Source of the DNA: Acidobacteriota bacterium
Lineage (GTDB): Bacteria; Acidobacteriota; Terriglobia; Bryobacterales; Bryobacteraceae
Assembly (NCBI GenBank): GCA_026394015.1
Contig: JAPKZA010000223.1
Span: forward strand, 1-35,226
DNA: 35,226 nucleotides
Reading direction: 5' to 3'
Shown here: in pieces, positions 8,456 through 35,041 of the stretch
How the letters are laid out: each line of letters opens with the position of its first letter
Position numbering within the stretch: the first letter of the stretch is position 1
Notes under the pieces: generated by a model
The model's input: the letters and a program-made list of their open reading frames with translations, nothing else
The model's database searches: none
What the model was told of the DNA's origin: nothing
Program-made: the position numbers and the translations under genes

Positions 8456-9354
8456 ATCGACGTACTTTCCTTACTTCGTTGGCGGCAGTTCCGGCGGCGG
8501 CGCAACAGGCGTCCGACGAGCGGACGCGCATCGTGCTGGACGTGGCCCGCGTGAACATGTTGTTCGCGGTGACGGACAAGAAAGGCCGATTCGTGACGAA
8601 CCTGACGAAGGACGACTTCGAGATCAAGGAAGAGAAAAAAGAGCAGCAGATCCTGGAGTTCGTGGCCGAATCGGATCTGCCGCTGCGGCTGGGCATCCTG
8701 GTCGATTCGTCGAACAGCGTGCGGGACCGGTTCAAGTTCCAGCAGGAAGCGGCGGTCGAATTTGTGAATTCGGTGGTGCGGCCGGAAGATAAGGCCGTCG
8801 TCGTGAGCTACGACTCCGGCGCTGAGCTGGTGGCGGATCTGACCGGCAACACGGAAGTGCTGGCGAAGGCGATTCGCAGTCTGCGGCCGGGCGGCGGGAC
8901 GGCGTTGTACGAGGCGATCTATTTCGCTTGCCGGGACAAGCTGATGCAGGACCAACCGCGGCACAAGTTCCGTCGGGCGATGGTGGTACTCGGCGACGGC
9001 GACGACAACGCGAGCCGGTACACGCGGGACCAAGCGCTGGAGATGGCGCAGAAGGCTGATGTGGTGGTCTATACGATTTCGACCAACAACAGTAAGATTG
9101 AGCAGGAAGGCGACAAGGTGCTGCGGTACTTCGCTTCCGAGACCGGCGGCATGCCGTTTTTTCCTTTCCAAGCGCGGGAGCTGGCGCAGTCGTTTGAGAA
9201 CATTTCGAACGAGCTGCGGCACCAGTACAACGTGTTGTATCGCCCGGAACCGCTGAAGGCAGACGGGCTGTTCCATCGGGTGGACGTCCGGGTGAAGACG
9301 CGGAAGGATTTGACCGTACGGGCTCGGAAGGGCTACTACGCTCCGCGAGCCTGA
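8452..9354 (+). CDS. Secreted VWA protein with VWFA-related Acidobacterial domain
   Basis: A 300-residue protein with a twin-arginine-like N-terminus (NRRTFLTSLAAVPAAAQQ), suggesting Tat export. After a small beta domain (FAVTDKKGRFVTNLTKDDFEIKE) the VWA fold begins at about residue 75. The MIDAS metal site is Asp85-Ser87-Ser89 in ILVDSSNSV, followed by GGGTALYEAI (MIDAS Thr) and VLGDGDDN. The order of the short beta domain, VWA and a closing VRVKTRKDLTVRARKGYYAP is the hallmark of the VWFA-related Acidobacterial domain, which is expanded in this phylum. Family members are secreted and of unknown function; a protein- or polymer-binding role is inferred from the VWA fold. It is coupled to the upstream pseudouridine synthase, and its last 19 bases overlap the convergent sulfatase. 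Confidence 0.92.
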   Translation: MNRRTFLTSLAAVPAAAQQASDERTRIVLDVARVNMLFAVTDKKGRFVTNLTKDDFEIKEEKKEQQILEFVAESDLPLRLGILVDSSNSVRDRFKFQQEAAVEFVNSVVRPEDKAVVVSYDSGAELVADLTGNTEVLAKAIRSLRPGGGTALYEAIYFACRDKLMQDQPRHKFRRAMVVLGDGDDNASRYTRDQALEMAQKADVVVYTISTNNSKIEQEGDKVLRYFASETGGMPFFPFQARELAQSFENISNELRHQYNVLYRPEPLKADGLFHRVDVRVKTRKDLTVRARKGYYAPRA

Positions 9355-10700
9355 AGAATCGCTTCGAGCTGTTGGCGCAGGGCTGCTTTTTGTGGGGCGG
9401 TGGCGGCGATGTTCTTGAACTCGCGCGGGTCGGTCTGGTAGTCGTAGAACTCTTCGCCCTCGGTGCCCTTGTTCCACATCGTATAGCGGTAGCGTTCGGT
9501 GCGGATAGAGTAGCCCATCACTTTGCCACGCTGCACCTGGCTGACGGCGGGGTGGTCCCACTTGGTTTGCGGCTTTTCGAGCAGCGGCTTCATGCTGCGG
9601 CCGTGGAGGCCAGGCGGCGGCTTTAGACCGCAGAGATCGGCGAGCGTGGGATAGATATCGAGCATCTCAACGGGTGCCGGGCAGACGCGATTTCGAGCGG
9701 AGACGCCGGGGCCGGCGAAGAGCAGCGGGATCCGGGTGGACGGCTCAAAGAGGGCTTGTTTCATCCACTGGCCGTGTTCGCCGAGATGGTAGCCGTGGTC
9801 GGACCAGAAGACGATGTTGGTGTTGGCGGTGAGCTTGAGCCGATCGAGCGCGTTGAGGATTTTGCCGACTTGGACGTCGAGGAAGGCGATGGAGGCGTAG
9901 TAGGCCTGCAGGGCTTCCTTCCGTTGCTGGAGGGACATGCCCCAATTGCCGGGCTTGGTGAAGTAGGCCCACTGGGGGGCGATCTTCATCTCGTCGGCTT
10001 CGAAGGAGACGGGGTCCATCTTATCCGCGGGGAAGAGGTCGAAGTACTTCTTGGGGGCAATCCAGGGGACGTGAGGGCGGTAGAACCCCATCGCCAGGAA
10101 GAAGGGTTTGTCCTTGTGCTTTTCGAGCAGGCTGACGGCGTGGGCGGCGCCGATGCCGTCGGTGTGTTCTTCGTCGGGCCGGTCGGAGGCGTGCAGGGTG
10201 ATGGCGCTGCCGATGTTCTTCCGCTCCGGGGTGTGGTTGATCAGGAGCGGCTCTTCCTGGGTCTTGTCGACACCGATGGGGTTGAAGGTGTAGTCCCAGG
10301 AGGGCGCGTCGTCGAGGCCGGGGGTGCCGATGTCGCCGGGGACGCCGTAGTGATAGATCTTGCCGATGCGGGCGGCGAAGTAGCCGTTGTTGCGGAAGAG
10401 TTGGGGCAGGGTGACGGTGTTGGGCCGGGACTCGCGGAAATGTTTGGCGAGGTTGTAGACGCCGGTCGCATCGGGCGACAGGCCGGTCATCAGGGACGTG
10501 CGGGAGGGGCTGCAGAAGGGGTACTGCGTATAGGCTTTATCGAAGCGGACCCCGGCTTTGGCGATGCGGTCGATGTTGGGCGTTTTGACGAGCGGATGGC
10601 CGTAGCAACTGAGGCAGGTATTGAGATCGTCGACGCCGATGAAGAGGACGTTGGGACGGGGAGCGGGGGCGAGGGCGGCGAGAAAGGTTCGGCGGGTCAT
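9336..10700 (-). CDS. Iduronate-2-sulfatase-like Cys-type sulfatase, Tat-exported
   Basis: The start is ATG 10700, giving 454 residues. The open frame continues further upstream, but that part is low-complexity Arg/Pro-rich shadow of the next gene. The N-terminus TRRTFLAALAPAP is Tat-like and is followed at once by the sulfatase core PNVLFIGVDDLN, with Asp24/Asp25 as calcium ligands. The modified cysteine is Cys63 in PFCSPSRTSLMTG, matching CxPSR, the formylglycine site. GFYRPHVPW, WSDHGYHLGEHGQW and the C-terminal RYTMWNKG resemble iduronate-2-sulfatases and their bacterial relatives. It removes sulfate esters, probably from sulfated polysaccharides outside the cytosol; the exact glycan is unknown. 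The start overlaps the stop of sulfatase 2 (ATGA at 10697-10700). Confidence 0.93.
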   Translation of the reverse strand: MTRRTFLAALAPAPRPNVLFIGVDDLNTCLSCYGHPLVKTPNIDRIAKAGVRFDKAYTQYPFCSPSRTSLMTGLSPDATGVYNLAKHFRESRPNTVTLPQLFRNNGYFAARIGKIYHYGVPGDIGTPGLDDAPSWDYTFNPIGVDKTQEEPLLINHTPERKNIGSAITLHASDRPDEEHTDGIGAAHAVSLLEKHKDKPFFLAMGFYRPHVPWIAPKKYFDLFPADKMDPVSFEADEMKIAPQWAYFTKPGNWGMSLQQRKEALQAYYASIAFLDVQVGKILNALDRLKLTANTNIVFWSDHGYHLGEHGQWMKQALFEPSTRIPLLFAGPGVSARNRVCPAPVEMLDIYPTLADLCGLKPPPGLHGRSMKPLLEKPQTKWDHPAVSQVQRGKVMGYSIRTERYRYTMWNKGTEGEEFYDYQTDPREFKNIAATAPQKAALRQQLEAILQARGA

Positions 10701-12067
10701 ACGGAGAGGACTTCCTTGTGGAGCGCGAGCAGTCGGGTTTTGAGCTTCAAGAGCTGCTTGGGGTTCTGGGCGGAGAGGTCGGTCTTTTCGCCGAGGTCGG
10801 TGGGGAGATGGTAGAGCGCGAAGCGGGTGAGCGACTGCTGCCGGGCGATTTCGAGATGAGGCGGCCGGAAGCTGGCGACTGGCACGGAAGGAGCACCGAC
10901 GGGCCACATGCCGACGACTTTCCACGGGCCATCGCGGAGGGAGGCTTTGGGATCGTACATGGAGTTGAGGTAGTGCCAGTGGAGGGGGACGTTGCGTTTG
11001 ACCGGCTTGCCTTTGAGGATCGGCAGGATACTGGCTCCGTCAAGCGGCTTGACGGGCTTGCTGGCATGGGCGGCTTCAACGAGGGTCGGCAGGACGTCGA
11101 CGCAGCAGATGGGTTCCGAAGACGTGACGCCGGCCTTGGCATGGCCGGACCAGCGGAGAATGCCGGGGACGCGGTAGCCACCTTCGTAGAGCGATAGCTT
11201 CATGCCGCGGAAGGGGCCGGGGGTTCCGTAGGATCGATGGGAGCCGGGGTAGCGGAGGAGCGTTTCGGGGCCGTTATCGGACGTGAAGTAGACGAGGGCG
11301 TCGCCTCGGCCCTGCGCTTCGAGCGCGGCCATGAGGCGACCGAAGTGGTGGTCCATTTCGGCGACGTTGCCGAAGTACTCGGCGCGTTCGCGGGGCGTGG
11401 CAGAGCCGTATTGGGCCGTGAAGGCGTCCGACGTCGCGACGGTCTCGTGCGGCGAGTGGAAGCAAGTAAAGAGGCAGACGGGTTTCGAGGCTGGGACGGA
11501 CTTGAGCCAAGCGATGGATTCATCGGCGACGATCTGGCTGGAGAAGCCGGTAAGCGGCCCGACGGGTTGCCCGTTGCGAACGAAGTTGACGGGGTTGCGA
11601 TGGGTGGGGAGCGAGTTGTTTTGCGTCGAGACCCAATGGTCGAAGCCGTGGTCGTTCGGCTGCGGCTGGGCGGGCGAATTGAAGAGGCCGTTGCAGTGCC
11701 ACTTGCCGATGTGAGCGGTGGCGTAGCCGCTCGTCTGAAGCAGCTTGGCAAAGGTCTGCTCGGAGCGCTGGAGATGATAGGCGGAGCCTTCGGGGATCCA
11801 ATCGTAGACGCCGAGGCGGGTGGGGGTGCGGCCGGTGAGCAGGCCGCAGCGCGACGGCGAGCAGACGGGGGCGGCGGCGTCGCAATCGGTGAAGCGGATA
11901 CCTTGGGTCGCGAACTTATCGAGGTTCGGCGTGAGGATGTTCGGATGGCCGAAGCAGCCGAGATCGCCGTAGCCGAGGTCGTCGCAGAGGACGACCACGA
12001 TATCGGGCTGCTTCGATTTGGCGGTGAGCAACGCGGGGGCGGCGAGGAGAGCTCGACGGCTGATCAT
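10697..12067 (-). CDS. Arylsulfatase-like Cys-type sulfatase, Tat-exported
   Basis: The start is ATG 12067 (ISRRALLAAPALLTA, a Tat-like signal), giving 456 residues. The much longer open frame upstream is an Arg/Pro-rich shadow. The core begins PDIVVVLCDDLGYGDLGCFG with the metal-binding Asp pair at 29-30. The formylglycine cysteine is Cys69 in APVCSPSRCGLLTG. Further support comes from HIGKWHCNG, FTSDNGPE and RVPGILRWSGHAKAG, which are typical of arylsulfatase A-type enzymes of family S1. The substrate is a sulfate ester of unknown identity. It lies between a DUF4380-like gene and sulfatase 1, with ATGA overlaps at both ends, so all three are coupled. This suggests stepwise processing of one sulfated sugar polymer. 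Confidence 0.93.
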   Translation of the reverse strand: MISRRALLAAPALLTAKSKQPDIVVVLCDDLGYGDLGCFGHPNILTPNLDKFATQGIRFTDCDAAAPVCSPSRCGLLTGRTPTRLGVYDWIPEGSAYHLQRSEQTFAKLLQTSGYATAHIGKWHCNGLFNSPAQPQPNDHGFDHWVSTQNNSLPTHRNPVNFVRNGQPVGPLTGFSSQIVADESIAWLKSVPASKPVCLFTCFHSPHETVATSDAFTAQYGSATPRERAEYFGNVAEMDHHFGRLMAALEAQGRGDALVYFTSDNGPETLLRYPGSHRSYGTPGPFRGMKLSLYEGGYRVPGILRWSGHAKAGVTSSEPICCVDVLPTLVEAAHASKPVKPLDGASILPILKGKPVKRNVPLHWHYLNSMYDPKASLRDGPWKVVGMWPVGAPSVPVASFRPPHLEIARQQSLTRFALYHLPTDLGEKTDLSAQNPKQLLKLKTRLLALHKEVLSV

Positions 12068-12972
12068 GCGAGTAACGGCAGGAGATGGGCGTCGAGTTCG
12101 TCGTCGGTGAAGGCGCTGAGGGGAACGTCGGGATGGAGGCTCCAGAGTTCCGTGTGGGTGAGCGCTTCGCCGTGAGCGAGTTGGGTCAGCGGGCCCATGG
12201 TTTCGAGTTCGAGGAAGTCGCCGTTTGTGAAGATCTCGAAGGAGGCGCCGAATTCGGGGTGCTCTTCGGCGAAGCCGTCGGGGAAGTATTGCTTCAGGAA
12301 GAGGCCGCCGTGGAGGCTGTAAGCGCCCCAGGTGTGGTCGTTGAAGTGGCCGAGCTTTTGGGGGACGGGATTGGCGGGATCCTGGCGGAGCAGGAGGTAT
12401 TTCTTCGTGAACTTCCAGCGGGGGTCGCTGAGGTCCGTGAAGGCCCACATGATGATGGGGTTGGTCGGTTCGAGCATTTCGGGGTGAGTGCCGCGCGGGG
12501 GCCAGCCAGTGATGCCGACACCACCGGGGGCCATGACGGTGGGGGTCCAGGCGGCGAGTTCGACGGGGAGGGTGTTGGTGTTCTCGATGCGGTGGAGGAC
12601 TTCGACCGAGGACGAATCTGGCGAGAGGGTGAGGTGGATGGACTTGCGGAGGCCGGTTTCGCGTTCGACGGGCTGGAGGGCGAGGATGGACAGTTCGTTG
12701 GTTACGATCTCGACGGGACCGTTGTCGAGGGCGTAGGTGGCGAGGCGATCTTCGGGGCCTTTCCAGAGGCGGTGGCCGCCGCGGATCATCCACTGGGCTT
12801 CGCCGGAAGAGCCCATCATCTCGTCGAATTCCTTGAAGAAGTTGGGGCCGCCGGTGAAGCCGAAGTGGATGACGCGGGGGCCGACGTCACTGGTGACGAT
12901 CAGGTCGACGATGCCGTTGGATAGCCGGTAGGAGTTGGGCCAGCCGCGGAAGTTGAGTTTCTCGATAGACAT
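12064..12972 (-). CDS. DUF4380-like (aldose-epimerase-fold) protein
   Basis: The start is ATG 12972 (SIEKLNFRGWPNSYRLSNG), giving 302 residues; the upstream extension of the frame is a Ser/Pro-rich shadow. The segment YRLSNGIVDLIVTSDVGPRVIHFGF is characteristic of DUF4380-type proteins, a beta-sandwich family related in fold to galactose mutarotases. Later HRLWKGPED, NDHTWGAYS and FEIFTNGDFLELETMGP also fit. There is no signal peptide, so a cytosolic location is expected. Biochemical function is unproven; carbohydrate binding or mutarotation is an inference from fold. It is coupled by ATGA (12064-12067) to two sulfatases, which supports a role in handling a sulfated sugar. It starts 13 bases after the preceding gene's stop. 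Confidence 0.75.
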   Translation of the reverse strand: MSIEKLNFRGWPNSYRLSNGIVDLIVTSDVGPRVIHFGFTGGPNFFKEFDEMMGSSGEAQWMIRGGHRLWKGPEDRLATYALDNGPVEIVTNELSILALQPVERETGLRKSIHLTLSPDSSSVEVLHRIENTNTLPVELAAWTPTVMAPGGVGITGWPPRGTHPEMLEPTNPIIMWAFTDLSDPRWKFTKKYLLLRQDPANPVPQKLGHFNDHTWGAYSLHGGLFLKQYFPDGFAEEHPEFGASFEIFTNGDFLELETMGPLTQLAHGEALTHTELWSLHPDVPLSAFTDDELDAHLLPLLA

Positions 12973-23424: not shown

Positions 23425-24804
23425 ATGCCCATTTCGCGCCGCACCGCCCTGACGCTGGCCGCTCCCTTCCTGAACCTACGTGCCCAGAATCGGAACGATC
23501 GGCCTAATATTTTGTGGATCCTGGGCGACGATCTCGGCCCCCAACTCGGCTGCTATGGCCACCCGCTGGTCCACACCCCCAACGCCGATCGGATCGCGGC
23601 GGAAGGTACCCGTTTCACCCATTGCTTTACCACCGCGCCGGTCTGTTCGCCGAGCCGTTCGGGCTGGAACACCGGGGTCTACCAAACGACGATTGGGGCG
23701 CACAATCACCGCAGCCATCGGCAGGACGGGTATCGGTTGCCGGACGGGGTGAAGCTGATTTCTCATCGCATGAAGGAGGCCGGGTACTTCACGGCCAACG
23801 TGAAGGAGCTAGCCCCAGGCATCAAGGTGCCGGGCAAGACCGACTTTAATTTCGGCGCGGATAAGCCTTTCGACGGGACCCATTGGAGGCAGCGGGCCAA
23901 GGGCCAGCCGTTTTACGCCCAGCTCAATTTCACGGCCCCGCATAAGGGTCCGATCTGGCCCGCCGCCCGGGCCCAGAAGAGGTTGATCGATCCAGCGAAG
24001 GTGGAACTTCCGCCCTACTATCCGGACCATCCGGTGGTGCGCGATGAGGTGGCCAACTACCTGGACGCGGTGAACTACTGGGATACCCAAGTGGGCGCGG
24101 CGATGGATTTGTTGAAAGAGGACGGCTTGCTGGAAAACACGGCGATTTTCGTGTTCGGCGACAACGGCCGTTGTTTGTTGCGCGGCAAGCAGTGGCTCTA
24201 TGACGCGGGAACGCATGTTCCGCTGCTCGTCCGTTGGCCGGGGCATGTGAAAGCCGGAGCGGTCCGCAATGATCCGACGATCTCGCTCGATATCACCGCG
24301 ACCAGTCTGGCGATGGCCGGGATTGCGCCACCGGCCCTGATGCACGGTCAGGACTTATTTGGCAAGGCGAAACCGCGGACGCAAATCTTTACGGCGCGGG
24401 ATCGCTGCGATATGACGGTGGATCGGATTCGGGCCGTCCGGGATAGCCGCTATAAGCTGATTCGGAATTTCATGCCGGAGAAGCCGTATACGCAGTTCAA
24501 CGACTACATCACGAAGAGCTATCCGACGCAGCAGGTGATCAAGGACCTGCATGCGGCGGGGAAACTGAACGCCGTGCAGAGCCAATGGATGGCTCCGCGT
24601 AAGCCCGAAGTGGAACTTTATGACCACCAGGCGGATCCGCACGAAGTGAAGAATCTCGCGTTGGAGCCGAAGCACAAAGGTACCGTGGCCAAGCTTTCCG
24701 CCGCGCTGGACCGTTGGATTGTCGACACTGGCGACCAAGGTCGCACTCCGGAGCCCAAAGAGGTGATTGATCGGGAGGAACCGAGGGCTACTCCAAGAGA
24801 TTAA
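23425..24804 (+). CDS. Sulfamidase-like Cys-type sulfatase, Tat-exported
   Basis: A 459-residue protein starting ATG 23425, five bases after the enolase stop. The N-terminus ISRRTALTLAAPFLNLRAQ is Tat-like. The core begins RPNILWILGDDLGPQLGCYG with calcium-binding Asp residues at 35-36. The formylglycine cysteine is Cys74 in APVCSPSRSGWNTGVY. The segments HNHRSHRQDG and LISHRMKEAGYFTANVKE resemble heparan N-sulfatases and related family S1_8 enzymes. FGDNGRCLLRGKQWLYD and LLVRWPGHVKAG complete the active-site region. It probably hydrolyses a sulfate ester or sulfamate of a polysaccharide outside the cytosol. The last 17 bases overlap the convergent SET-domain gene. Confidence 0.92.
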   Translation: MPISRRTALTLAAPFLNLRAQNRNDRPNILWILGDDLGPQLGCYGHPLVHTPNADRIAAEGTRFTHCFTTAPVCSPSRSGWNTGVYQTTIGAHNHRSHRQDGYRLPDGVKLISHRMKEAGYFTANVKELAPGIKVPGKTDFNFGADKPFDGTHWRQRAKGQPFYAQLNFTAPHKGPIWPAARAQKRLIDPAKVELPPYYPDHPVVRDEVANYLDAVNYWDTQVGAAMDLLKEDGLLENTAIFVFGDNGRCLLRGKQWLYDAGTHVPLLVRWPGHVKAGAVRNDPTISLDITATSLAMAGIAPPALMHGQDLFGKAKPRTQIFTARDRCDMTVDRIRAVRDSRYKLIRNFMPEKPYTQFNDYITKSYPTQQVIKDLHAAGKLNAVQSQWMAPRKPEVELYDHQADPHEVKNLALEPKHKGTVAKLSAALDRWIVDTGDQGRTPEPKEVIDREEPRATPRD

Positions 24805-33211: not shown

Positions 33212-34166
33212 TATTGGTGGTTGCGCTGTCAGGGGTGTTTTTGGTCCTGGCGGCGGGCCTGTAGCGATTGCAGTAGCTTTTGTGGCAGAGATAGCTGCCG
33301 CCCTTCATGACGCGCTCCCGGCCCTCGGGGGGGCCAACCGGGTTTAGAGCGGTGGCAGTCATGTGCCAAGTCGGGTGGAACCAATCCTGGCACCACTCCC
33401 AGGCGTTGCCGGTGACCGAGAGCAGGCCATAGCCGTTGGCGGGAAAAGCGTCCACGGGGCCCGGCGCGGTGAACCCGTCGTCGCCGAGGTCGATTTTGGG
33501 GAATTCGCCCTGCCAGATATTGCAGAGATGGCGCCCTTGGGGCGTCAGTTCGTCGCCCCACGGGTACTTCTTCTGTACCAAGCCGCCGCGGGCGGCGTAC
33601 TCCCACTCGGCCTCGCGCGGCAGGCGTTTCCCAGCCCAGGCGCAATAGGCCTGCGCGTCGTTCCAGGACAGATGGACAACCGGATGATGAGGCCGCTCCC
33701 GCACCGACGAATCGGGTCCTTCCGGGTGCTTCCAATCGGCACCGGGGACTTTGCACCACCACTCGTGCCCCAGGACGGTGTCTTCGACGATGCGGCGATA
33801 TTTTTCCTCTGGGATGTGGCCGGCGAAAACGAAGCCCCAGCCGAAGCGTTCGCTTTCGGTTTGGTAGCCGGTGGCCTGGACGAATTCGGTGTACTCGACG
33901 TTCGTGACCGGCGCGGTGTCCATATAGAACGGGTCCACGTGGATCTCGCGGATCGGCCCTTCGCCGTCCGCCGGGAAGCCTTCGGCGTCTTCGGCCCCCA
34001 TCAGAAAGCGACCGCCGTCCAGCTTGGTCATCGTGCTGGTCGAACCGGTGCGGACAATCAGGCGTTCCTCGGCCATGCGGCGCGACAGCGCGGCCTGCTG
34101 CTCCCGCTGCCGACTCGGGAGGCAGCACGGATTCACTCCACCGAAAACGCGAAACGGATCGCTCAT
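33183..34166 (-). CDS. Formylglycine-generating enzyme (sulfatase-modifying factor)
   Basis: A 327-residue FGE-sulfatase-domain protein. Both catalytic cysteines are present at Cys294 and Cys299 in GGSYLCHKSYCNRYR, spaced as Cys336/Cys341 of human FGE, followed by AARTKNTPDSATTN. The substrate-groove and calcium motifs HPVVHLSWNDAQAYCAWAGKRLP and REAEWEYAARGG are also present. Many proteins with this domain lack the cysteines, so this one is likely a true copper-dependent oxidase that turns a sulfatase Cys into formylglycine. It has no signal peptide, so it acts in the cytosol. The N-terminus holds CCLPSR at residues 14-19, which matches the CxPSR substrate motif itself. The ATG overlaps the upstream PPIase stop (ATGA at 34163-34166). 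Confidence 0.95.
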   Translation of the reverse strand: MSDPFRVFGGVNPCCLPSRQREQQAALSRRMAEERLIVRTGSTSTMTKLDGGRFLMGAEDAEGFPADGEGPIREIHVDPFYMDTAPVTNVEYTEFVQATGYQTESERFGWGFVFAGHIPEEKYRRIVEDTVLGHEWWCKVPGADWKHPEGPDSSVRERPHHPVVHLSWNDAQAYCAWAGKRLPREAEWEYAARGGLVQKKYPWGDELTPQGRHLCNIWQGEFPKIDLGDDGFTAPGPVDAFPANGYGLLSVTGNAWEWCQDWFHPTWHMTATALNPVGPPEGRERVMKGGSYLCHKSYCNRYRPAARTKNTPDSATTNISFRCARDL

Positions 34167-35041
34167 ACAGCGGGTTGCTTGGCGGTCTTGATCACCGCTT
34201 TCTCCTTCAGCGCGTCGACGAAGGCTTCAAGAGCCTGCTCGCGAATGCCGGCCTGCATGGCACCTTCGATCTCTTCGCGGACATCGTTGAAGGGGCGTAC
34301 GCCTTCGGGGCGGCGGTCGTGTAACTGGGCGATATGAAAGCCAAAGACCGAGCGGAAGACCGGGCTGACCTGGCCGGGCGCCAAGGGCAGGACGGCGGCT
34401 TCAAACTCTTCGACCATCTCGCCGAGCGGGAACCAACCGAGGCTGCCGCCCTGGCCGGCGCAATCGGAGTGGCGGTCGGCGACCTCGGCGAAGGCGGCTC
34501 CGGCGGCGAGTTCGGCTGTAGCGACGGCGATGGCGGCGCTGGCGGTCTCCTCGTCGACGCTATCGTTCACGTTCTTCACGATGTGGGAGGCGTGGAGCAT
34601 CGGCGGGACGGCGAAGCGTTCCTGGTTGGCCTTATAGAAGTCGAGAAGTTCCTGTTTCTTCGGCTTGGGTGCTTTTTCGCCGACGTCCTGGACCAAGCGT
34701 TCCAGTTGGATCTGCGTCCGGATTTCGGCTCGCATCGCGTCGTGGTCGACGCCAGCGCGGGTGGTGCCCGCTTCGATGTCGTCCGGGTCACCGGGGGGAG
34801 GGAGCAGGGCGGTCATCCGCTCGTCAAGCTCTTCGTCCGAGATCAACGGTGCCCGGCTGGCGGCTTCCTGGCGCAGCAGAACGCGCTCGATGACGTTCTC
34901 TTTGCTCCAGTCCTTCAACTGGATCTCGCGCGCGATGGGCTCCATGTCGGCCATCATCGCTTCGTAGTGTGGACGCAGCGAAGTCATCTCCTCGCGGATC
35001 AATGCTTCGTCGACGTATTCCCCGTTTATCAGTAGGCCCAT
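34163..35041 (-). CDS. Parvulin-type peptidylprolyl isomerase
   Basis: A 292-residue protein from ATG 35041 with a strong AGGAGG site just upstream. A short N-terminal strand (LLINGEYVDEALIREEM) and a helical SurA/PrsA-like chaperone part (RVLLRQEAAS...ISDEELDERM) fill residues 1-150. The parvulin domain follows at about 160-260: MLHASHIVKN, AEVADRHSDCAGQGGSLGWFPLGEMVEEFE and FGFHIAQLHDRR. There is no signal peptide or anchor, so a cytosolic location is expected, unlike PpiD and PrsA. It is coupled to the FGE gene and could hold sulfatases unfolded for modification; this is an inference from the overlap. Confidence 0.9.
   Translation of the reverse strand: MGLLINGEYVDEALIREEMTSLRPHYEAMMADMEPIAREIQLKDWSKENVIERVLLRQEAASRAPLISDEELDERMTALLPPPGDPDDIEAGTTRAGVDHDAMRAEIRTQIQLERLVQDVGEKAPKPKKQELLDFYKANQERFAVPPMLHASHIVKNVNDSVDEETASAAIAVATAELAAGAAFAEVADRHSDCAGQGGSLGWFPLGEMVEEFEAAVLPLAPGQVSPVFRSVFGFHIAQLHDRRPEGVRPFNDVREEIEGAMQAGIREQALEAFVDALKEKAVIKTAKQPAV

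Follow-up and report, generated by a model that had tools for sequence, protein, structure and literature searches.

The FGE gene and its surroundings

The window analysed here, a stretch of 35,226 nucleotides from an Acidobacteriota bacterium, contains three sulfatase genes and, at its end on the minus strand and preceded by a gene for a PPIC-type peptidyl-prolyl isomerase, a gene for an FGE (sulfatase-modifying factor) (Table 1). The FGE matches the Pfam family PF03781 (FGE-sulfatase) over residues 44–325 (268 bits, 1.2e-79), reaches a Z score of 36.5 to 2q17 in structure comparison and has both catalytic cysteines, C294 and C299, within a CHKSYC loop. By domain, fold and CHxxxC loop it would be an enzyme of the copper-dependent (aerobic) type, predicted to bind Cu(I) and to oxidize CxPxR motifs. 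The source genome has 13 FGE-domain matches; among the eight with loci, the window FGE alone has a two-cysteine loop. Two things favour this start codon, the overlap (ATGA) with the gene before it and the likeness of residues 1–13 in seven close relatives; no ribosome-binding site is evident ahead of this ATG.

Table 1. Positions in the window of the FGE gene, its N-terminal features and the associated genes
Feature	Position	Strand	Basis or remark
Sulfatase with CSPSR at 10500-10514	9336..10925	-	PF00884
Sulfatase with CSPSR at 11849-11863	10697..12793	-	PF00884
Sulfatase with CSPSR at 23644-23658	23425..24804	+	PF00884
FGE / sulfatase-modifying factor gene, 327 aa	33183..34166	-	PF03781 match
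Catalytic loop CHKSYC, C294-C299	33270..33287	-	Cu(I) ligands by homology
N-terminal tail, residues 1-43	34038..34166	-	Ahead of Pfam domain (44-325)
CCLPSR, residues 14-19 of FGE	34110..34127	-	Translation, alignment
Invariant pair C14-C15, codons	34122..34127	-	Alignment
PPIC-type peptidyl-prolyl isomerase gene	34163..35041	-	Overlaps FGE start by ATGA

An earlier note on this DNA had drawn attention to residues 14–19 of the FGE, CCLPSR, as a fit to CxPSR, the motif that the enzyme itself oxidizes in sulfatases, and had read CSPSR in all three sulfatases of the window. Translation confirmed the segment, and each CSPSR could be located. Dozens of CxPxR or CxAxR matches occur in the six frames of the window, so that a single match is weak evidence; what lifts this one above chance is conservation.

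The PPIC–FGE gene pair is present at 24/25 and 20/22 loci of acidobacterial relatives with enough upstream sequence. A PPIC gene lies upstream at 2 of 19 loci in a wider acidobacterial sample and at single loci in the samples of Verrucomicrobia and Hydrogenedentota, and at none of 11 actinobacterial loci or of 34 non-acidobacterial loci from a genome scan. The isomerase was therefore rejected as a partner of the tail, being mostly confined to Bryobacterales and a few others; it may be a helper of the sulfatases or of the FGE.

Conservation of the cysteine pair in close relatives

Among 17 FGE genes of the same genus, the window gene included, CLPSR or CIPSR is found in eight and CVPSK in nine. 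Conservation of the literal CxPSR was rejected on this count and on that of a broader set, where CCxPSR occurs in only 9 of 100 tail-bearing clusters. In an alignment of 73 sequences no column ahead of residue 56 is invariant except those of C14 and C15; apart from the window protein, these sequences came from a tail-biased scan, one of whose six patterns was FGGVNPCC. Across the seven close relatives synonymous differences occur in the codons for C15, P17, S18 and R19, the C14 codon is unchanged, and residue 16 accounts for all seven amino-acid differences within residues 13–19. Of the codons that changed in these relatives, the fraction with a non-synonymous change is 0.21 for residues 13–19, 0.44 for the linker (residues 20–43) and 0.23 for the core.

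Survey across phyla

FGE-domain proteins were classed by their catalytic loop, independently of the tail, and a CC pair was sought within 110 codons ahead of the core, behind any possible start codon. The genomes searched were 61 relatives, 247 from the window's own phylum, 145 from the phylum of a Verrucomicrobia MAG, 296 from that of an Actinobacteria assembly, 299 from that of a Paenibacillus, 68 from that of a Hydrogenedentota MAG, 325 from the class of the genome G317 and 150 from its genus (presumed Streptomyces), the last searched again in 392 genomes with a 33-residue query. Of the matches from the genus of G317, 30 of 58 were classed, and of those from its class 30 of 60; plasmids were represented by 30 hand-chosen records from 60 listed of 151. 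The sample of relatives leaves out 11 matches (fragments and second copies) and the own-phylum sample leaves out one (G975:C406). Planctomycetota, Chloroflexota, Cyanobacteriota, Myxococcota and chromosomal Pseudomonadota lay outside the survey, and Bacteroidota and Deinococcota entered it through one plasmid each, both with other loop classes and no CC pair. Among viral contigs one stretch fits a pattern and no relative was found. A contig scan with FGGVNPCC among its six patterns is biased towards the tail, and counts are hence also given without it.

The pair proved to be tied to the catalytic class. CC stands in the N-terminal tail of 229 of 232 distinct sequences with a CHxxxC loop (115 of 118 if the pattern-based scan and the later actinobacterial samples are left out), while the rest of the tail is variable. 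Proteins with other two-cysteine loops (CAPxYC, CTDQYC, CSENYC and the like) have it in 2 of 68 (L205 and L256, in segments that look hydrophobic by eye), and those whose loop lacks the catalytic pair in one of nine, L170, a frame-broken FGE with the tail CCTPER. The tail-bearing FGEs among the sampled FGE-domain proteins come from six bacterial phyla and from haloarchaea. There are three CHxxxC exceptions: the tail of L149 is short; L207 has an N-terminus resembling a signal and falls with the other loop classes on both trees described below; and L241 (genome G023) has the tail CPNCSPRR, in which the pair is spaced as CxxC and C-x-P-x-R is kept. Of 16 annotated CHxxxC genes on plasmids, 14 are annotated so as to include the pair, starting 2–22 codons ahead of CC, and two so as to cut it off.

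The conserved feature is thus a vicinal cysteine pair. It belongs to an N-terminal dicysteine tail, of which CCLPSR is the local version and which marks the sampled CHxxxC-loop FGEs; the usual pattern is M-x(2-15)-C-C-x-[P]-[S]-[R/K] followed by a variable linker to the core. The earlier note had proposed that recurrence of its motif in other phyla would reveal a neglected feature of the family. The feature that contains the segment does recur, with CC in 100 of 103 clusters at 75% identity in the enlarged set; the literal CxPSR is local. The note had seen a real thing and named a motif narrower than the conserved one.

Two observations concern possible export. A second class of FGE-domain proteins (L140, L141, L193, L195–L199 and others) has two cysteines in loops such as CTDQYC and no CC tail, and its N-termini often look by eye like signal peptides or lipoprotein signals. 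Separately, L202, from the phylum of the Hydrogenedentota MAG, has a Tat-like signal by eye (MAITRRQFLGAGAAAALTPALARA) shortly ahead of a CCAPAR tail, which suggests an exported FGE that retains the cysteine pair.

Sulfatase-like residues around the pair

Counting from the first cysteine of 73 tail-bearing clusters (75% core identity) as they were first assembled, the third position after the pair's start is proline in 57 and the fifth is arginine in 39 and lysine in 12 more; both P and R (CCxPxR) are present in 27. When the other tail residues were shuffled 500 times, the corresponding means were 7.2 for P, 6.1 for R and 0.7 for both, with maxima of 15, 14 and 5. Further cysteines are absent from 62 of the 73 tails. 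Of the 100 tail-bearing clusters in the enlarged set, 75 have P at +3, 50 have R at +5 (62 with K counted as well) and 35 have CCxPxR; at +2 the usual residues are A, T, V, S and G, and the distance from the pair back to the nearest start codon has a median of seven codons. The strict sulfatase signature, given as C-[STACG]-P-[STA]-R in PMC7279497, is found in 13 of these 100. Proline and arginine therefore stand at the sulfatase-motif positions far above chance, and P-S-R is a strong tendency and not a universal one: arginine is missing from many tails (VPSK, VPSV, TPSS, and CCAPAT in Streptomyces) and proline from many tails of Bacillota.

Start codons, solved structures and predicted structure

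No solved FGE chain aligns by sequence with residues 1–31 of the window FGE, the earliest alignment starting at residue 32. By structure the FGE chains align from residue 39–44 of the window FGE, and its residues 1–36 match no listed chain; the structures of human FGE comprise the core and align from residue 87–89 (1087 in one entry). OCTIN, an FGE-domain crystal protein described with disulfides in PMC5915273, was set aside as a protein of another branch that has no catalytic cysteines.

For the crystallized bacterial enzymes, starts were judged from predicted start codons at the loci of near relatives. The S. coelicolor chains in the PDB read (A)VAAPSPAAAAEPGPAARPRSTRGQVRL. The locus L308 (genome G1354), which differs from these chains in four places beyond the tag junction, has an in-frame GTG 15 codons upstream of the internal GTG where the native part seems to begin; this upstream GTG is followed by TLTHRPCCAPATAP and preceded by gattcGAGGAccc, with GAGGA, resembling a ribosome site, ahead of it, and a start there would add VTLTHRPCCAPATAP ahead of the crystallized protein. 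All 11 related Streptomyces loci (L309–L317 and L263 among the loci read) have a start codon exactly seven codons ahead of CC (ATG in eight, GTG in three). The S. coelicolor FGE used for crystals thus looks as if it starts at an internal GTG, a late start codon. The T. curvata case looks alike: its PDB entry 6s07 has PSFDFDIPRRSP after two residues, while L318 (genome G1705), with 88% core identity to T. curvata FGE, reads TTG-ADRPHERPACCAPALSAEVTAAPTFGFDIPRRSP, with GTGGAG before the TTG and CC upstream of where 6s07 begins.

AlphaFold gave the tail little confidence. For the window FGE the mean pLDDT was 48 for residues 1–10 and 59 for residues 11–20; from residue 21 block means of 91–95 were reached, and most of the core and a helix at residues 19–33 were confident, with values of 50–74 for residues 281–310 around the active-site loop. 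A Paenibacillus protein had 38 and 47 over its first 20 residues. Neither of these two models placed the tail confidently in the substrate groove.

Core phylogeny and the human enzyme

Trees were built from the core alone. In a FastTree of 109 rows the CHxxxC proteins used, except L207, form, together with human and T. curvata FGE, one clade with support of 99; a quick IQ-TREE of 57 rows recovers the clade, again except L207 and with human and T. curvata FGE within it, with support of 95. On either tree, with two PDB rows left out, tail presence requires three state changes. Human FGE lies inside the clade in one tree and is its first branch in the other, which makes it plausible that human Cys50/Cys52 and the prokaryotic pair share an origin; the human cysteines would then probably descend from that pair. 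The window FGE shares with the human-type extension the possession of two cysteines ahead of the core (C14 and C15).

The two-cysteine extension of human FGE is described in a review (PMC7279497) as unique to higher eukaryotes, and the same source reports that replacement of C50 and C52 by alanine abolishes both sulfatase activation and the interaction with ERp44. According to PMC4505483, removal of the extension leaves human FGE with similar activity in vitro, whereas an earlier study had found the extension necessary, and the core produced without it in insect cells contains 0.34 Cu per enzyme.

Discussion

We tentatively favour, as the most likely of the readings considered, a tail that acts as a tethered Cu(I)-loading arm for the active site. 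The vicinal cysteines would pick up cellular Cu(I), the P-x-R part, which resembles the sulfatase motif, would dock in the empty substrate groove, and exchange of thiolates would then carry the metal to C294/C299, by way of a state with three thiolates like that formed with the substrate. The proposed copper transfer is modelled on COX17, whose neighbouring cysteines hold Cu(I). A tail that docks like a substrate and carries a cysteine pair could bring about such an exchange; FGE is described in PMC12123546 as binding Cu(I) between two cysteine thiolates, with the substrate cysteine as the third. Conservation of CC, the scarcity of other tail cysteines, the enrichment of P and R and the single core clade all argue for this proposal. 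Against it stand the low AlphaFold confidence for the tail and the many tails from which arginine or proline is missing. Among the options of the earlier note (pseudo-substrate, auto-modification site, copper ligand or regulatory tail) the copper ligand ranks first in our judgement.

Data on copper content bear on the proposal in both directions. S. coelicolor FGE produced in E. coli carried about 0.01 Cu per enzyme and depended on stoichiometric copper (PMC4505483); the protein so measured seems, by the start codons of its relatives, to have been without the tail, although the cytosol of E. coli may itself be poor in copper. In human FGE the extension is not essential for copper loading, since the core alone is active and carries copper, and the loss of function in the C50/C52 mutant has another explanation in the lost interaction with ERp44. 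The human in vitro data count against a strict need for the tail, be it in copper loading or in reduction, unless DTT or added copper in the assays replaces it.

The main rival, in our estimate somewhat unlikely, is that the pair is a tethered reductant that supplies the two electrons of each turnover: one cysteine would attack the Cu-sulfenate or oxidized active site, its neighbour would resolve the intermediate, and thioredoxin, glutaredoxin or glutathione would re-reduce the pair. A strictly vicinal arrangement suits attack and resolution, whereas a direct disulfide between adjacent cysteines is strained. FGE requires a two-electron reductant, and DTT in assays could mask a need for the tail, in keeping with an extension that is dispensable in vitro in the human enzyme while C50 and C52 are needed for activation; but glutathione or other small thiols of the cytosol could suffice without any tail. 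PMC12123546 states that the reductant serving FGE physiologically is not known.

It is improbable that the tail serves to dock a partner, its cysteines forming mixed disulfides or binding another protein as human Cys50/Cys52 do with ERp44. That human precedent and the isomerase gene directly upstream of FGE in Bryobacterales and relatives would fit such a role, yet the tail is equally conserved where no isomerase lies upstream, ERp44 is a protein of the ER, and the cytosol is reducing.

The pseudo-substrate idea of the earlier note, taken here to mean that the tail would fill the groove and autoinhibit the enzyme or that Cys15 would itself become formylglycine, finds partial support but is very improbable. 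It gains from the excess of P, R and CCxPxR over the shuffles and from +2 residues close to the sulfatase signature, and loses by the rarity of the strict signature, by a second cysteine that a pure pseudo-substrate would not require and by the lack of confident docking in AlphaFold. The cysteines are kept where P or R is lost, which disfavours auto-formylglycine formation and makes auto-modification unlikely as a general function. A better fit is a dock that resembles a pseudo-substrate and aids a cysteine pair engaged in copper handling or redox chemistry. Hardly credible, finally, is that the pair is a clade marker kept by descent, or that it appears because translation was read from upstream of the real start: start codons are indeed inferred, the CC test accepts any possible one and the tail does not dock confidently in AlphaFold, but the pair is fixed while the remaining tail drifts, codons around it vary synonymously, most annotated plasmid genes include it, and the same test finds next to nothing in the other classes.

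The dicysteine tail is a conserved and apparently overlooked element of a known enzyme family; no description of it in prokaryotic FGEs was found in the open-access literature among the matches listed. It is conceivable, if short of probable, that the bacterial FGEs used for crystals and kinetics have been without a conserved working part through late-placed starts, and that this part is a built-in donor of Cu(I), of electrons or of both (the missing physiological loader or reductant) that predates the divergence of the enzymes of bacteria, archaea and animals and survives as human Cys50/Cys52. The start codons of relatives suggest that the standard S. coelicolor FGE protein may be truncated. 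With the pair in nearly every sampled CHxxxC FGE and outside the aligned part of the solved chains, copper loading and reduction become directly testable, and the human Cys50/Cys52 result acquires a possible general meaning beyond retention in the ER. According to PMC7279497, every cellular sulfatase in humans is activated by FGE, and it is this enzyme that is deficient in multiple sulfatase deficiency; the use of FGE for making aldehyde-tagged proteins is described in PMC4505483.

Comparison with known systems

The S. coelicolor and T. curvata FGEs (2q17, 6muj, 6s07 and 5nxl) share the fold of the window protein (Z 35.5–36.5) and its catalytic loop, whereas their crystallized chains begin after the site of the CC tail in near relatives. 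The tail resembles the type I sulfatase motif CxPxR in that x-P-S-R often follows its second cysteine; it differs in the cysteine directly before and in an arginine that is often replaced by lysine or lost. COX17, reported to hold one Cu(I) between Cys22 and Cys23 (PMC7582641), offers a likeness in its Cu(I)-binding vicinal pair, which the FGE tail matches by its CC, but it is a mitochondrial protein of the CHCH fold; we draw an analogy of working and claim no homology. Human FGE (SUMF1) has Cys50/Cys52 in an N-terminal extension and its core in the CHxxxC clade; its cysteines are separated by one residue, and the protein, which has a signal peptide, resides in the ER and relies on ERp44.
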